Source of the DNA: Clostridiales bacterium
GTDB lineage: Bacteria > Bacillota > Clostridia > Christensenellales > SZUA-584
Direction: 5' to 3'
Assembly: GCA_029265435.1 (NCBI GenBank)
Contig: JAJUJH010000006.1
Location: 1-39,733, forward strand
DNA: 39,733 nucleotides
The notes under the pieces were generated by a model, which was not told where the DNA came from, ran no database searches, and saw nothing but the letters and a program-made list of their open reading frames with translations. The translations under genes were made by a program, and so were the position numbers. This document shows positions 60-39,733 of the stretch, one piece after another; positions within the stretch are counted from its first letter, which is position 1, and the number at the start of each line of letters is the position of its first letter.

Positions 60-92
60 ATGAGCGCATTTGGCTGCCTGCGGAATAAAAAA

Positions 93-296
93 GCAAGCGG
101 GTGCGATACCCGCCTGCCCCGACTGTCAATAAAGCTATAAATATCATTTGTGGGCAAGACGGGCTTTGCCCGCGCAGCCCACACCTTGCGGTTTTGCGCC
201 GTTTCGAGCTTGCGAGGACCAAGCAAAACCGGAAAACTGTCGGAAAACCGAAGGTTTTTCGACAAGCTGAGCAAGCGGGCGCAATACCCGCCTGCC
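93..296 (+). repeat. Terminator-nested dispersed element, copy 1
   Basis: The element proper is 119-270 (about 152 bp), starting near GACTGTCAATAAAGC and ending near CGACAAGCTGA. It is flanked by a near-identical 26-bp hairpin sequence at 93-118 and 271-296 (two mismatches; each folds as GCGGG..CCCGC). On the minus strand the 93-118 hairpin is followed by TTTTTT (complement of 87-92), so the host site is the intrinsic terminator of the minus-strand gene ending at 311. Inside are three stems: GTGGGCAA/TTGCCCGC (150-157/166-173), GCGGTTTTGC/GCAAAACCG, and GTCGGAAAACC/GGTTTTTCGAC (239-263). Short ORFs here are not conserved as protein. The same element recurs at 19475, 31687 and, inverted, 38362. 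Confidence 0.9.
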
Positions 297-1600: not shown

Positions 1601-2461
1601 TCAATACTGTATGGATTTTTCCAGTATCTCTTCCAGCACTGGCACCGTTTGGCCTTCCTTAAGCATAGGCGCAAACAGATCGCCCTTTTCCCTCAGCCTC
1701 AGCGCCGCGTTTTTAAGGGTGAAATCGCACGGCTTTACGCCGTTTTTCAGCTCGTCCCATTCAACGGGCATCGACACCGCGCCGCAAGGCGACGCGCGCG
1801 GCGAATACACGCTGATGATGCTTTTGCCGCGCCCCATCTGCAGATAGTCGAAATAAAGCCTTCGCCCTCGTTTTTTAACGAGCCGCTCTATCGTGACGGC
1901 ATCGGGATGTTTGGCGGCAAAATACCGGCCGAAGAACAGGTTGATCCTGCGGCCCTCCTCAAACGTCATGCGCCGCGTCGGGATATATATCTGCAGTCCG
2001 GACGCGCCCGACGTTTTGGCGTATGCGTTTACGCCGAGCGCCCTTAACGTATCGTTGACGGACAGCGCGCACGCGGCGGCGTCCTCGAACGTCTGTCCCT
2101 CCGAGGGATCAAGATCGAATACGAGCGCGTTCAGAAAACCGTCGGGGCGGCAGAACGGCACATGGAATTCAAGCGCCGCCGAATTACCGAGCCACACAAG
2201 CGTTTTGAGGCTGTCGAGGTTCACGAATTCTTCGCCCGTATCGTCCGTCACGATATTGACCCATTCGGGCGTGCCTTTTGGCGGCCTTTTCTGGTAAAAC
2301 GACTCGCCGCCCACGCCGTGCGGAAAGCGGATGGCGGTAAGCGGCCGTCCCGCAGTATGGGGCAGCAGATACGGCGCGAGCTCGGCAAGCGCGGCAATAT
2401 ATTCGGCTTTTGTCATGCCAATGCCCGGAAACAGCACCTTATCGGGGTTCGTGACGGACAC
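1601..2461 (-). CDS. ligD: LigD-type DNA polymerase/primase (NHEJ)
   Basis: A 286-residue stand-alone polymerase domain of the LigD family (archaeo-eukaryotic primase fold). In bacterial non-homologous end joining it fills gaps and adds nucleotides at broken ends. Visible motifs are FDLDP at 115-119 (metal-binding D116 and D118), KTSGASGLQIYIP at 149-161, and the distal block PVEWDELKNG. The second motif has Gln where mycobacterial and pseudomonad LigD usually have His; my recollection is that Gln is seen in Firmicute versions, so this need not mean inactivity. The start is GTG 2461 with AGGGGAG just upstream. It is the last of three co-directional genes (ku, ligase, polymerase), 26 bp after the ligase stop. 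Neither ORF carries a phosphoesterase domain. Confidence 0.93.
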   Translation of the reverse strand: MSVTNPDKVLFPGIGMTKAEYIAALAELAPYLLPHTAGRPLTAIRFPHGVGGESFYQKRPPKGTPEWVNIVTDDTGEEFVNLDSLKTLVWLGNSAALEFHVPFCRPDGFLNALVFDLDPSEGQTFEDAAACALSVNDTLRALGVNAYAKTSGASGLQIYIPTRRMTFEEGRRINLFFGRYFAAKHPDAVTIERLVKKRGRRLYFDYLQMGRGKSIISVYSPRASPCGAVSMPVEWDELKNGVKPCDFTLKNAALRLREKGDLFAPMLKEGQTVPVLEEILEKSIQY

Positions 2462-2487
2462 GCCGCTCCCCTGAACAGTGATGGTGG

Positions 2488-3372
2488 TCAGATGCCGATC
2501 TCCTCCCCCTGTGCCTCCGCGGGCGCTTTATCCGCAAAGCCAAGCAGCACCGGATGGCGAAGCGTCATCTGCGGCGTCCATTCCGAAAACCTGACCCAGC
2601 ATGTCAGGCGCGGCTCCACGCGCATATCGTCTCTTCCTGTCCGTTCGCCCTCGCGCCGCGCGTAATCGGCAAGCACGCGCAGATCGTCCTGCGTCAGCCC
2701 GAGGCTTGCACGCCCGACGGGTACAAGCGCGCCGCCGCGGTAAACGCCGAGGCTCAGCGACGCCGCCTGCCCGCCGCTGAAATGCACGCCGGTCACGGCA
2801 CAGAGCATTTTCTTCACGACTTTTGTTTTGAACCAGTCGCTGTGGTTCTTTCCCGCGGAATAAACGCTGCCGCGCCGTTTTGAGACGATCCCCTCCATGT
2901 TCCGTTTTTTCATCAGCGCAAACAGCGCCTCGCCGTCGTCAAAGCCGTCGGCCAGCGCCATGGACGCGCGGCCCGAAAAGCGGCTTTTCAGCAGCGCCTG
3001 CCGCCGTTCAATAGGCTCGCCGCGCAGGTCTTTTCCGTCCAGCATCAGCAGATCGAACACGACATACCGGGCGGGATACGCGGGGCCGGCTCCGGCGTTT
3101 CCGCGCTTGAGCGCATGGTAAAACGACGGTCTGCCGTCAACGAACACGACGATTTCGCCGTCAAGCACCGCCTGCTTCGCGTCCATGCCGTCTTTAAGCG
3201 CACCGAGCTCGGGATACGCCGCCGTCACGTCGTTCCCGCTTTTTGTGAAAACGGATACCGCGCCGTTTTCGAGCACCGACACGCCGCGAATTCCGTCCCA
3301 CTTAATCTGATGTATAAAATCCCCCGCCGCCACTTCGGGCAGCGCGATGGGCTCCATGACCTTAATATCCAT
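2488..3372 (-). CDS. ligD: ATP-dependent DNA ligase, LigD ligase domain
   Basis: A 294-residue ATP-dependent DNA ligase that seals double-strand breaks brought together by Ku. The adenylated lysine motif is K24-W-D-G27 (context HQIKWDGIRG). Further nucleotidyltransferase motifs are FDLLMLDGKDL, MEGIVSKRRG (motif IV) and DWFKTKV (motif V). The C-terminal OB-fold region ends in VRFSEWTPQMTLRHP, typical of LigD. In many bacteria this domain is fused to the polymerase; here they are separate genes. The ATG at 3372 directly abuts the ku stop codon at 3373-3375 and no good Shine-Dalgarno is visible, so translational coupling to ku is likely. Confidence 0.95.
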   Translation of the reverse strand: MDIKVMEPIALPEVAAGDFIHQIKWDGIRGVSVLENGAVSVFTKSGNDVTAAYPELGALKDGMDAKQAVLDGEIVVFVDGRPSFYHALKRGNAGAGPAYPARYVVFDLLMLDGKDLRGEPIERRQALLKSRFSGRASMALADGFDDGEALFALMKKRNMEGIVSKRRGSVYSAGKNHSDWFKTKVVKKMLCAVTGVHFSGGQAASLSLGVYRGGALVPVGRASLGLTQDDLRVLADYARREGERTGRDDMRVEPRLTCWVRFSEWTPQMTLRHPVLLGFADKAPAEAQGEEIGI

Positions 3373-4185
3373 CTATTTCGCACGGCGCTTGGAAGGCGCT
3401 TTTTTCATCGCCTTCTCCGTCTGCTCCACACTCCTTTTGAGCGCTTCCATAAGATCGATCACGTTGGTTTCGGGCACGCTGGGCGGAGAGACCACCTGCC
3501 GTCCCGCGATCTTTGCGTTGATCACCCTTTGCAGCGATTCGCGGTATTCGTCGGTATATTTCGACGGATCGAACGCCGCCGTGAGGTTGCCGATGAGCTT
3601 CTCCGCGATGTCCATCTCCTTTTCGTCCACCGCCGCCGCTTTGGGCAGAGACGGCACCTCGCTGACCGGCCTTATTTCATCGGGATAGAATATCGTTTCA
3701 AGCACGATCGCCTCGCCGTAAACGCGAAGCACGCAAAGCGTCTGCTTCTCGCGAAGCGTCACGCGCGCCACCGCGATGCGCCCCGTGCGGTTCATTGCCT
3801 CGCGCAGCAGGCTGTACGCCTTGCCGCCCATTTCCGGCTGGGGCGCAAGGTAATATGTTTTGTCGAAATAAATCGGGTCTATCTCGCTGAGCGCGACAAA
3901 ATCCACAATGTCGATGGAGCGCGCCTGAACCTCCGCCTTGGCCGATTCGATGTCCTCTTCCGACACGATCACGAACTTGCCCGGCTCATACTCAAAACCC
4001 TTCACAATGTCGTCCGGCCCCACCTCTTCGTTGCATAACGGACAGACCTTTTTGTATTTGATGGGCGTGTGGCATTTCTTATGGATCGAGCGGAAGCGGA
4101 TATCCTTTTCCTCCGTGGCGGCGAACATTTTGACGGGAATGCTCACCAGCCCGAAACCGACGGTTCCTTTGAACATCGCATGCAT
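3373..4185 (-). CDS. ku: Ku DNA end-binding protein
   Basis: A 270-residue bacterial Ku, which forms a homodimeric ring that threads onto broken DNA ends and recruits LigD. The N-terminus FKGTVGFGLVSIPVKM is the family signature, followed by FRSIHKKCHTPI and VCPLC (Cys 38, 48, 51), the usual Cys-rich turn, and RSIDIVDFVALSEIDPIYFDKTYYLAP in the core. The C-terminus is Lys/Arg-rich (KKAPSKRRAK), as in Ku proteins that bind DNA with a basic tail. ATG 4185 has GGAGG seven bases upstream; a second in-frame ATG three codons later is less well placed. It is first gene of the ku-ligase-polymerase operon. Confidence 0.96.
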   Translation of the reverse strand: MHAMFKGTVGFGLVSIPVKMFAATEEKDIRFRSIHKKCHTPIKYKKVCPLCNEEVGPDDIVKGFEYEPGKFVIVSEEDIESAKAEVQARSIDIVDFVALSEIDPIYFDKTYYLAPQPEMGGKAYSLLREAMNRTGRIAVARVTLREKQTLCVLRVYGEAIVLETIFYPDEIRPVSEVPSLPKAAAVDEKEMDIAEKLIGNLTAAFDPSKYTDEYRESLQRVINAKIAGRQVVSPPSVPETNVIDLMEALKRSVEQTEKAMKKAPSKRRAK

Positions 4186-19443: not shown

Positions 19444-19655
19444 AGCCTCCCGTACTGCCGGCGGAAGGCTTGGACTGTCAATAAAGCCAATAATATTATA
19501 AATCGCGGGCAAGACGGGCTTGGCCCGCGCAGCCCGCACCTTGCGGTTTTGCGCCGTTTCGAGCTTGCGAGGAACAAGCAAAGCCGGAAAACTGTCGGAA
19601 AACCGAAGGTTTTTCGACAAGCTGAGCCTCCCGTACTGCCGGCGGAAGGCTTGGA
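19444..19655 (+). repeat. Terminator-nested dispersed element, copy 2
   Basis: The element is 19475-19624 (150 bp). It is flanked by a 31-bp sequence repeated without any mismatch (19444-19474 and 19625-19655), itself an imperfect stem-loop (GCCTCCCG..CGGCGGAAGGC). On the minus strand the left hairpin is followed by TTTTT (complement of 19440-19444), so the host site is the terminator of the vanW-like gene ending at 19679. Stem 1 is CGCGGGC/GCCCGCG (19504-19510/19523-19529). The perfect flanks make this the youngest-looking copy. Confidence 0.92.
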
Positions 19656-31659: not shown

Positions 31660-31845
31660 AGCCTCGAAGCATCTGCTTCAAGGCCCAGACTTTTAATAAA
31701 GCTGGAAATACCATTTGCGGGCAAGGCGGGCTTTGCCCGCGCAGCCACACCTTGCGGTTTTGCGCCGTTTCAAGCATGCGAGAAACTGTCGGAAAACCGC
31801 AAGGTTTTTTCGACAAGCTAGCCTCGGAGCGTCTGCTTCGGGACC
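31660..31845 (+). repeat. Terminator-nested dispersed element, copy 3 (internally deleted)
   Basis: The element is 31687-31819 (133 bp); the 3' arm of stem 2 is missing, roughly an 18-bp deletion relative to copies 1 and 2. It is flanked by related hairpins at 31660-31686 and 31820-31845 (AGCCTCGAAGCATCTGCTTCAAGG versus AGCCTCGGAGCGTCTGCTTCGGG), now diverged but each still foldable. On the minus strand the distal hairpin is followed by GGGGTTTTAT. The proximal hairpin touches the stop codon of the endolysin gene, whose terminator is the host site. Confidence 0.85.
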
Positions 31846-36770: not shown

Positions 36771-37610
36771 TCAAATCGACGTTTCTTCGGCCGTCGTGAG
36801 ATCCACGCGGATCAGCTCGGCGGGGCGGATCACCGTACCGCCGTAAAGATGCAGCACCTTAAAAGCGTCCGCAAACGTCTTCTCCGGCTTGTACCGCTCG
36901 ATCATGCCTGCGGGGATTTGCTCCGCCAGCGCGATCGCCTGCCTTGTGAACGCCATGCAATGATGCACGCTCCCCGTCTTTTTGATGGAATTGCTGACGT
37001 ACACACCGAAATTCAGATAGCTGCCCTTAAACCCCTTGCCGAACACATCCGCGTTCCCCTGCTGAAACATGATCTTGCCAAGCACGAGCTTAGTATAAAT
37101 AGCGGGCGATATCACGAGAAACCGTTCCTCCTCAAAGGGCACGTCCGCCTCAAGCAGCGCCTGTTCGGCTTCGGCCAGCGTCGAGAGTATCGTCGCCGAT
37201 GTGCAGTTCGTATTTTCGATGACGCCGCCCGCCTGCTCGTGAAACCCCGCGATATATTCGTCCAGCGTCTGGGCCAGCGCCTTTTTGGCCTCTCTGACCT
37301 CCACGCCGAATACCTCGCCCTGCGCCTGCGCTTTGTCCACCCTGTCCACCTCAACGTTGACGTATTTGGCTTCGGTGATGTAAAGGTCCTGATTATAGCT
37401 CGTTTTCTGTTCGAGCGTGATATCCTCGCCGGGCGTATAATCCCTGACGGTCGGGCGGCCCACGCCCGCAATGCGCAGCACATCGCCCTTCTTCGTGATC
37501 TCGCCGAGTATGGGGCCTTTATAGGTCAGGTTCTTAAACACGCAGTCTCTGCCCCTGTCGGTCATCAGCTCTTTGGCCAGAATCTCCGGCCGGAAACTTT
37601 CGTATGCCAT
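36771..37610 (-). CDS. Phage major capsid protein (P22 coat-like)
   Basis: 279 residues. The opening (YESFRPEILAKELMTDRGRDCVFKNLTYKGPILGEITKKGDVLRI) and the run EDITLEQKTSYNQDLYITEAKYVNVEVDRVDKAQAQ are typical of podovirus coat proteins with the HK97 fold, as are FLVISPAIYTKLVLGK and the closing GGTVIRPAELIRVDL. It follows a scaffold-like gene, as in P22-type modules. ATG 37610 has AAGGA about eleven bases upstream. Confidence 0.85.
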   Translation of the reverse strand: MAYESFRPEILAKELMTDRGRDCVFKNLTYKGPILGEITKKGDVLRIAGVGRPTVRDYTPGEDITLEQKTSYNQDLYITEAKYVNVEVDRVDKAQAQGEVFGVEVREAKKALAQTLDEYIAGFHEQAGGVIENTNCTSATILSTLAEAEQALLEADVPFEEERFLVISPAIYTKLVLGKIMFQQGNADVFGKGFKGSYLNFGVYVSNSIKKTGSVHHCMAFTRQAIALAEQIPAGMIERYKPEKTFADAFKVLHLYGGTVIRPAELIRVDLTTAEETSI

Positions 37611-37627
37611 CCAGTGTCACATCCTTT

Positions 37628-38299
37628 CTATTCTTTTTGTCCCGTTAAAAACGCCCAGATCCGGCTGTGGTTGCTTTCCAGCTCCGCCGGGCTCATCATT
37701 CTGATGCTGTCTTCGGTGATCGGCTTTGGTGCGGCCGCTCCCGTCCCGATGGCGCCGCCCATGCTCGCGTAGGCGTTCTGCGCGTTGGTTTGCCGCACAG
37801 ACTCCTTTTGCCGCTGCTGTTCGTTTAAACGCGCGTACGCGTCGATCAGCGGCATGCCGTTTTTCCATGCGTCCAGCACCGACGCGGGCAGCACGCGCGG
37901 GTCGATATCCGGATGCGCCTGCATAAATGCGTCAAGCTGGGCGTTCACCGTTTCCTGTTTCTGCCGTTCCTCACCGAGCTTTCGTCCGATGTCGGCCAGC
38001 GCCTCCGTTTCGCTCACGCCGTGCCGCTTCGCGTATTCTTTGACCGCTTCTCCGGTGCTTTCGTACGCTGCAAGCAGTTCCTGCGTTTTTTCCAGTCTGC
38101 CGCTGAGCTTGTCGTAATTGAGCCCTTTCTGGGCATAAACGGCCGCCTCTTCACGGGACAGCGGCAGCTCGTCTTTGTTGTAGCGCACCGTCAGAAAAGC
38201 ATCCTCCTGCGGCGCACCTTCTCTCATGCCGCTTTCCGCGGCAGCTTCTTCCGGCTGGTTTGCCGTATATACAGCCTGTGGCTGGGCCATATCCGCCAT
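37628..38299 (-). CDS. Phage scaffolding protein
   Basis: 223 residues from ATG 38299 (GGGAGAG upstream); the open frame beyond is the repeat element. It is helical, charged and Gln/Glu-rich: LPLSREEAAVYAQKGLNYDKLSGRLEKTQELLAAYE, then KRHGVSETEALADIGRKLGEERQKQETVNAQLDAFMQAHPDIDP. This is the usual look of podovirus scaffolds that are encoded just before the coat protein. It is separated from the upstream genes by a terminator holding repeat copy 4, so it probably needs a promoter of its own or read-through. Confidence 0.8.
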   Translation of the reverse strand: MADMAQPQAVYTANQPEEAAAESGMREGAPQEDAFLTVRYNKDELPLSREEAAVYAQKGLNYDKLSGRLEKTQELLAAYESTGEAVKEYAKRHGVSETEALADIGRKLGEERQKQETVNAQLDAFMQAHPDIDPRVLPASVLDAWKNGMPLIDAYARLNEQQRQKESVRQTNAQNAYASMGGAIGTGAAAPKPITEDSIRMMSPAELESNHSRIWAFLTGQKE

Positions 38300-38336
38300 T
38301 GTTGTTCTCTCCCTTCGTTTTTTTGTATATAAAAAA

Positions 38337-38537
38337 CGGATCGCCGTTCGGCTGATCCGCCAGCTTGTCGAAAAACCTTCGGTTTTCCGACAGTTTTCCG
38401 GTTTTGCTTGTTCCTCGCAAGCTCGAAACGGCGCAAAACCGCAAGGTGTGGGCTGCACGGGCAAAGCCCGTCTTGCCCGTGAATGATATTTTTAGCTTTA
38501 TTGACAGCCTGACGGATCGCTGTTCGGCTGATCCGCC
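38337..38537 (-). repeat. Terminator-nested dispersed element, copy 4 (inverted)
   Basis: The element, 38362-38512 (151 bp), runs in the opposite orientation to copies 1-3. It is flanked by a 25-bp hairpin sequence at 38337-38361 and 38513-38537 with a single mismatch (CGGATCGCCG.. versus CGGATCGCTG..). On the minus strand the distal hairpin is followed by TTTTTT (complement of 38331-38336). The host site is a terminator inside the prophage structural operon. Stem 1 here is CACGGGCAA/TTGCCCGTG (38456-38464/38473-38481), with an A-T pair where copies 2 and 3 have G-C. Confidence 0.9.
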
Positions 38538-38589
38538 TTTTCAAAATCCATAACATCCCCAGAGGGAATCATACTTCACGCGTTCTGCG

Positions 38590-38618
38590 CAGAAGGGGCC
38601 GCAATGCAGCCCCTTCTG
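38590..38618. other. Strong stem-loop after the coiled-coil membrane gene
   Basis: CAGAAGGGGC (38590-38599) pairs perfectly with GCCCCTTCTG (38609-38618). It is nine bases from the stop codon of the minus-strand gene but has no T-tract on either side, so it may be an RNA-stability or processing hairpin rather than a terminator. Confidence 0.6.
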
Positions 38619-38627
38619 CCGGACGGA

Positions 38628-39044
38628 TTATCGTCCCGTCATCTCTATGATTCGCAGAATAACGGATATCACACCCGGCAGCGCGGCGAAAAGCGCAATA
38701 TACCATGCCCGCTTTTTTGACTGCTCCTTCGACGTGTTTCGTTCGATTCTTTCAACCTTGTCTCCAAGCCTGCTGAGCATTTCCACAAAAAGCTTCGCGT
38801 TGCCTTCCATACCCGTTTTGATCGTTTCGATACGGCCTTCCGCCTCGGCCAATTCCACGCGCGTCTGATTGATCTGCTCTTCCAGCTTGCAGATGCGCTT
38901 GCCGTGCTGTTCCTCCAGCCTTCGCGTTTCGCTTCTGATGGCGCGGCCGATTGCGGCACAGCCCTCTCCGTCATTCTCCAGCCCCAGCTTTTCAAACATT
39001 TCGGACAGCCGGGTAACCAGCGCGTCATTTTCCGTGACCACCAC
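38628..39044 (-). CDS. Coiled-coil protein with C-terminal membrane anchor (holin-like)
   Basis: 138 residues as read from GTG 39044, with an in-frame TAA two codons upstream; the GGGAGG nearby overlaps the start, so the exact start is unclear. Residues 30-105 are a long coiled coil (RRLEEQHGKRICKLEEQINQTRVELAEAEGRIETIKTG and LGDKVERIERNTSKEQ). One C-terminal membrane helix follows (WYIALFAALPGVISVILRII). This resembles XhlA-type haemolysin or holin-associated proteins. Its position between portal and scaffold is unusual for a lysis gene, so a structural or membrane role is also possible. Confidence 0.65.
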   Translation of the reverse strand: MVVTENDALVTRLSEMFEKLGLENDGEGCAAIGRAIRSETRRLEEQHGKRICKLEEQINQTRVELAEAEGRIETIKTGMEGNAKLFVEMLSRLGDKVERIERNTSKEQSKKRAWYIALFAALPGVISVILRIIEMTGR

Positions 39045-39087
39045 CTCCCTTTACTCATGTAGGTAACAAAGGCAACAGCCACTCACT

Positions 39088-39733
39088 TCATTTTATGCGT
39101 CCGTTTGCCCCGCGTTTGTTTTCTTTTGCGCGTTTTTCCGCGGCGTCCGCCGCCTTGCCGGCAATGTCCGGCAAGCTTTCGCGGCGCGGCTGCACCGCCT
39201 GCGTCTCCAGCCGCTTCACTTCGTCCAGCAGCTCCTCCCGCATCGGAATATACCCGTCGGGTATGCGCTCAAGATACTGACGAAAAGAAATCTGAGACCC
39301 CTTCAGAAGATTATCAAGCGTCTGCACCGTCTGCACCTCGCTCCACATCGTCGAAGGCCCCACATCCACCTTGAGGCGCATCGCATAGGCGTCGAGCACA
39401 TTCTCGGGCAGCGGCACAAACACGCGCCGCCCCTCAATGTCAATCGGTATCATGCGTCCCGCACGGTAATACTGACGTATAAAATCCAGCCAGATCAGCC
39501 CGACATCCTCCACGAACGCATAAAACCGTTCCTGCTGCGATTGCAGCGGCACCAGCGCCGCGTCCCTCGTCGCGATGAACGCGGACGTGTTGTCGGGGTT
39601 TTTGACATTGCCGAGAGTCACGTCGTTCGCGCCCATCATGCGCATCGTCGTATCCAGCGTCGCATGGAGCCCCTGCCACGCATCATAAGACACGCCCGGC
39701 GGCATCAGATACTGCGCCGCTCCCGCAATGTCG
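39088..39733 (-). CDS. Phage portal protein, C-terminal part (runs off the window)
   Basis: The frame is open to the right edge, so only the last 215 or so residues are seen. The sequence DVTLGNVKNPDNTSAFIATRDAALVPLQSQQERFYAFVEDVGLIWLDFIRQYY is typical of portal (upper collar) proteins from podovirus-like prophages of Firmicutes. It is followed by VFVPLPENVLDAYAMRLKVDVGPSTMWSEVQTVQTLDNLLKGSQISFRQYLERI and a basic, disordered end (AEKRAKENKRGANGRIK). Portal proteins form the DNA entry ring of the capsid. The terminase should lie to the right, beyond the window. Confidence 0.8.
   Translation of the reverse strand, partial: DIAGAAQYLMPPGVSYDAWQGLHATLDTTMRMMGANDVTLGNVKNPDNTSAFIATRDAALVPLQSQQERFYAFVEDVGLIWLDFIRQYYRAGRMIPIDIEGRRVFVPLPENVLDAYAMRLKVDVGPSTMWSEVQTVQTLDNLLKGSQISFRQYLERIPDGYIPMREELLDEVKRLETQAVQPRRESLPDIAGKAADAAEKRAKENKRGANGRIK

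Follow-up and report, generated by a model that had tools for sequence, protein, structure and literature searches.

A short mobile element, very probably of IS1182 type, that inserts at, and duplicates, predicted terminator hairpins in a Clostridiales genome

Introduction

Intrinsic terminator stem-loops are landing sites for group IIC introns, and palindrome targeting is already known in the IS1182 family. Within that family, IS1272 replaces stem-loops; an alternative outcome, in which joining at the 5' feet duplicates the whole stem-loop, appears in the same work as a hypothetical pathway (b) only (Wan et al., PMC5678879). We analyzed a window of 39,733 nt (the whole stretch examined) from contig JAJUJH010000006.1 of a Clostridiales bacterium, which contains four copies of a folded repeat, together with further copies in its own genome (G000), a sister species (G001), and another genome of the same genus (G002). 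The repeat is very probably a non-autonomous MITE of ~150 bp with IS1182-type transposition, which inserts at predicted intrinsic terminator hairpins and duplicates the whole hairpin (18–35 bp). An earlier note on this DNA recognized the folded repeat and missed both its identity as a mobile element and the duplicated hairpins on its flanks. In the literature searched, largely outside the subscription journals, we found no description of elements that duplicate terminator hairpins at such scale.

Results

The four copies reported in the earlier note, with starts near 120, 19475, and 31686 on the forward strand and 38511 on the reverse strand, are all present, and each is flanked by a hairpin duplication (4/4, Table 1). 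Pattern searching with up to three mismatches located 101 sites in the own genome (~100 copies) and none with the reversed control. The sister species carries ~20 copies and the third member of the genus a few. Among 38 further relatives searched, 37 lacked the element, and one (G022) gave a 27-base partial match (E = 5e-4). A scan of 84,980 species for the exact core, from which records close to the own genome were possibly left out, returned matches in two MAGs only, SZUA-584 and the Christensenellaceae MAG AS01afH2WH_49, which represent one genus. Several copies lie at contig ends, as is usual for repeats in draft assemblies. Copy 4 neighbors phage-like genes (36771–39705) with Pfam matches to capsid-like (36771–37610) and P22 portal-like (39088–39705) proteins, possibly part of a prophage. 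Elsewhere in the window (1601–4185), LigD primase-polymerase, ATP-dependent DNA ligase, and Ku are encoded by separate adjacent genes that form a non-homologous end-joining cluster.

Table 1. Positions of the element copies, their flanking duplications, and the stems of copy 1 in the window
Feature	Position	Strand	Remarks
Copy 1, left target hairpin, AGCAAGCGGGTGCGATACCCGCCTGCC	92..118		A-tract just outside
Copy 1, element (probable MITE)	119..270	+	left end CGACTGTCAATAAAGC, right end TCGACAAGCTGA
Copy 1, stem 1 in minimum-energy fold	149..183	+	outer 149–155/177–183 (TGTGGGC/GCCCACA), nested inner 160–164/168–172
Copy 1, stem 2	186..234	+	core 189–197/223–231; strong between-species covariation
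Copy 1, stem 3	238..264	+	238–249 with 253–264; 3' arm overlaps right terminal repeat
Copy 1, right duplicated hairpin	270..296		25/27 identical to left
Copy 2, left target duplication	19444..19474		31 bp, hairpin
Copy 2, element	19475..19624	+	
Copy 2, right target duplication	19625..19655		31 bp, perfect identity with left
Copy 3, left target duplication	31660..31679		
Copy 3, element	31686..31820	+	~17–19 nt deletion takes out stem 2 3' arm
Copy 3, right target duplication	31820..31839		18/20 identical
Copy 4, target duplication, lower-coordinate side	38336..38361		then T-tract on - strand
Copy 4, element	38361..38511	-	
Copy 4, target duplication, upper-coordinate side	38512..38537		25/26 identical

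In its size of ~150 bp, its lack of coding capacity, and its ~100 copies, the repeat has the features of a MITE, as it does in its imperfect terminal inverted repeats (TCAGACTGTCAATAAAGC against TCAGCTTGTCGAAAAACC on the other strand, 13/18 alike). A direct duplication, counted at a score of at least 20, flanked 75 of the 86 copies with both ends intact (median length 24) and 13 of 430 shuffled flanks; the 11 intact copies without a clear duplication count against the pattern. We examined the duplicated target in 68 clear cases drawn from the own genome and the sister species. It forms a hairpin with a median energy of -12.1 kcal/mol, compared with -4.0 kcal/mol for shuffled sequences, and in 60/68 cases the energy beats at least 95% of shuffles. 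The two duplicates are identical in 21/68. In 55/68, the sequence just outside the duplication is an A-tract (left side) or a T-tract (right side). By these sequence criteria, the duplicated hairpins are predicted intrinsic terminators. The left A-tract was commoner than the right T-tract among the clear cases (39 vs 26), which suggests that insertion favors one orientation with respect to the terminator.

Two loci in the sister species, matched by the orthologous gene on one side, are empty sites; the terminators differ in sequence from one species to the other. There, a single terminator and another reading frame come after the orthologue (62%) of the VanW-domain gene that neighbors copy 2, and a single terminator after the orthologue (65%) of the NlpC/P60 gene that neighbors copy 3; neither locus has the element. 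The hairpin target duplications and the empty sites together indicate mobility. A lone right-end sequence in the same species (L186 259, G001:C31) lies directly after a terminator hairpin but is not joined to an element; it is probably a truncated copy.

The ends of the element, of the type CAGNCTGTCNANAAA, resemble those of IS1182-family elements of the same order, which are near CAGCCTGTCGAAAAA. One of these is L223 (G285), with ends CAGCCTGTCGAGAAACCC / CAGCCTGTCGAAAAAG, which matches our element at 15/17 positions of the right end (CAGCTTGTCGAAAAACC) and 13/16 of the left, and which is flanked by a 24-bp duplicated palindrome, AATCARTTTCTGCAGAAACTGATT. L206 (G252), another member of the family, has CAGCCTGTCGAAAA ends and the palindromic duplication AATATACATAGTATA, so that palindrome duplication, like the matching ends, is found in relatives that carry a transposase. 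The L223 transposase is homologous to the protein of L201 (82% identity over the matched part), which is encoded by a broken gene that hits the IS1182 model as two separate segments (254 and 107 bits). The ends of L201 are similar and each abuts a hairpin, the two hairpins not being copies of each other. At a further locus, L195, the ends are related (CAGACYGTAGACAAA) and the two flanking hairpins differ from each other.

No homologue of the L201 IS1182 transposase was detected in the own genome, the sister species, or the third genome of the genus, all fragmented draft assemblies. In the own genome, IS1182 models from Pfam and NCBIfam produced distant or broken matches only, and no such locus bears the element ends. 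A transposase partner is presumably lost or unassembled. Other candidates were set aside: the IS elements of the sister species (C3, C106) have unrelated ends (GGGCACCTCTAAAAACC), an IS1182-like gene in another relative (G003:C9) lacks ends of the element type, and matches to the terminal-repeat pattern in that relative lie, apparently, mostly inside genes.

The element strand folds into a structure of -58.8 kcal/mol, against -42.7 kcal/mol in shuffles (z = -3.7, 0/200 as good), with three stems, of which stem 3 has a 5' arm that is an inverted copy of the right-terminal-repeat motif. Stem 3 (GTCGGAAAACC/GGTTTTTCGAC) occurs in all four window copies with an altered loop in copy 3, as the earlier note had described. 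Its account of stem 1 stands for the letters and falls for the base partners. It quoted GTGGGC (150–155) and GCCCGC (168–173) in copy 1, GCGGGC/GCCCGC in copies 2 and 3, and ACGGGC/GCCCGT in copy 4, all of which are correct. The minimum-energy fold instead pairs 149–155 with 177–183, with 160–164/168–172 nested inside. The T-G wobble ascribed to copy 1 results from choosing the wrong partner, because GTGGGC has a perfectly complementary one in GCCCAC at 177–182. Because GGGC and GCCC blocks recur within a short distance, more than one partner looks acceptable on inspection. For copy 4, GCCCGT is indeed the better fit to ACGGGC; yet this A..T pair is present in 2 of the 90 copies aligned.

Variant copies occur in the sister species. 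In one copy (L133 793–943, G001:C107) the internal loop of stem 1 is nearly all paired (GTGGGCAATA / TATTGCCCAC). Five others (L136, L139, L140, L169, and L172) all stop right after CACACCTT, at the boundary of stems 1 and 2, with an upstream hairpin and no downstream duplication. One short form (L171) ends near the same boundary and has a 23-bp duplication. Such copies may reflect either a shorter mobile form alongside the full one or a hotspot for deletion.

Between species, stem 2 is kept in the copies of G002 and in divergent copies of the sister species despite very different letters. In an alignment of eight sequences, 91.7% of its cells are paired and six of nine pairs are double-changed, compared with 1.3 ± 1.0 in shuffles (0/500 reaching six) and 0–2 in slid versions. 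Of these six double changes, a single copy (L142) contributes four, and L141 and L167 contribute one apiece; with so few sequences, the pattern is strong and the sampling modest.

Among resident copies, we aligned 90 from the own genome (a few are absent, e.g. C11:1532), the comparison across many genomic copies that the earlier note had called for. The nested structure had 10 double-changed pairs against 3.0 ± 1.2 in shuffles (0/500) and 19 double-changed cells against 4.6 (0/500); slid controls gave 4–11 pairs and 6–13 cells. The helix named in the earlier note (150–155/168–173) had two double-changed pairs and three cells, values reached by 34/500 and 13/500 shuffles, respectively. With events placed by Fitch reconstruction on a tree, under approximate null models devised for this analysis, that helix showed two compensatory events against 0.61 (P = 0.12, not significant), the outer stem one against 0.46 (not above the null), and stem 3 alone exceeded expectation (3 vs 0.55, P = 0.015). 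RNAalifold was uninformative on this alignment (covariation term -0.16).

Single changes were also informative. At paired positions, 161 occurred, of which 104 break and 57 keep pairing, against 47 kept as expected, again under an approximate null, from the mutation spectrum at unpaired positions (P = 0.017). This small excess lies in the outer stem, where G.U (19 vs 12.8) and A.C (16 vs 9.8) are alike overrepresented. The equal excess of A.C implies transition bias and not pairing on either strand, and we therefore rejected it as evidence of RNA selection. With the 57 against 47 put down to transition bias and no strand asymmetry, the resident copies of the own genome showed no pairing beyond neutral expectation; they look close to neutral decay.

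The claim that paired changes imply selection on structure thus fails for stem 1 as it was named: the tree-aware signal there is not significant, and paired positions of extant copies lose their pairing at about the neutral rate. A conserved fold in the general sense is upheld by the nested structure relative to shuffles, although slid controls reach up to 11 pairs, and by stem 2 between species. Judged from the sequences, the lineage that transposes seems to conserve structure, which might act as RNA or as DNA, and it may be there, and not in the individual resident copies, that the internal stems are maintained. As a caution, when a repeat is compared in four copies, paired changes may point to the wrong base partners.

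Discussion

The direction taken in the earlier note leads to a different reading of the repeat, as a structured RNA gene or cis-regulatory RNA with a host function, dispersed over many 3' regions. Folding better than shuffles, the deep covariation in stem 2, and the position of copies just after genes would all suit such an RNA. We nevertheless consider it improbable: duplications of host hairpins and empty sites denote mobility, no Rfam family reaches threshold in the window, the extant pairs break near the neutral rate without strand bias, and the exact-core scan places the element in one genus only. A hairpin element of the REP/RAYT or IS200/IS605 type, which would likewise be palindromic, intergenic, and high in copy number, is still harder to credit, as the ends match those of IS1182-type elements with DDE transposases and palindromic target duplications. 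REP elements are not known to make long target duplications, and REP/RAYT was set aside on that feature only.

The paired changes themselves could be mutational in origin and not selected, with template switching during replication copying one arm of an inverted repeat onto the other. This process is well known to act on perfect inverted repeats, and several double changes do fall within single copies. We regard it as unlikely, though less so than the two preceding explanations, since restoring and double changes are rare relative to breaking ones in the extant copies of the own genome; no efficient correction process is therefore visible among them.

Returning to a MITE of IS1182 transposition type, we propose that a transposase of this family, acting in trans, would have moved the copies by attacking an extruded hairpin or cruciform at its 5' feet, following pathway b in Wan et al. 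2017 (PMC5678879). The whole hairpin would thereby be duplicated, leaving the element between two copies of the terminator stem-loop. Because the A/T tract stays outside the duplication, the order from the upstream gene is a hairpin without a U-tract, the element, and a hairpin with a U-tract. As the U-tract is present at the outer, distal hairpin only, transcription would be predicted to read through the element and then terminate. Termination would survive at the distal copy and the insertion could be nearly harmless. Weighing against the proposal are the lack of a transposase homologue in the three draft genomes, the limited likeness (13/18) of the two element ends, the 11 of 86 copies without a clear duplication, the differing hairpins at L201 and L195, and the removal of the hairpin by IS1272.

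More broadly, we see about an even chance that a shape-recognizing transposition system copies the whole terminator hairpin to both sides of the insert, keeps the host terminator, and has thereby reached ~100 terminators, with compensatory change in the transposing lineage maintaining the internal fold. Under such shape recognition, the host would keep a working terminator at each insertion, and the spread to ~100 terminators would follow. Terminators as landing sites, at little loss to the host, may thus offer a route to ~100 copies in a compact genome.

The element can be compared with several described systems. Group IIC introns differ in their RNA-based retrohoming and in making no target duplication, and the window is without any Rfam match. 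The three IS1182-family elements L223, L206, and L201 have terminal sequences close to its own, and two of them (L223 and L206) duplicate a palindrome while L201 abuts hairpins; they are ~1.3–1.6 kb long with a transposase gene, whereas the element described here has ~150 bp and none. The L206 palindrome (AATATACATAGTATATT) is, unlike the targets of our element, not a G+C-rich terminator stem. BOX, RUP, SPRITE, and QMITE2 are MITEs that are likewise short, non-coding, intergenic, strongly folded, and likely moved in trans; in a review of bacterial MITEs, the text on terminators treats them as sequences inside elements (SPRITE) and not as host targets that become duplicated (PMC10969869). With IS1272, our element shares stem-loop targets of unrelated sequence, on our proposal the DDE transposase family, and a position just downstream of genes, where all four gene-proximal copies of IS1272 lie (PMC5678879). 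The difference is that IS1272 removes the target stem-loop without duplication (PMC5678879), whereas here the whole stem-loop is duplicated. Dozens of natural insertions are consistent with shape-directed transposition accompanied by whole-hairpin duplication, an outcome only proposed in the IS1272 work.
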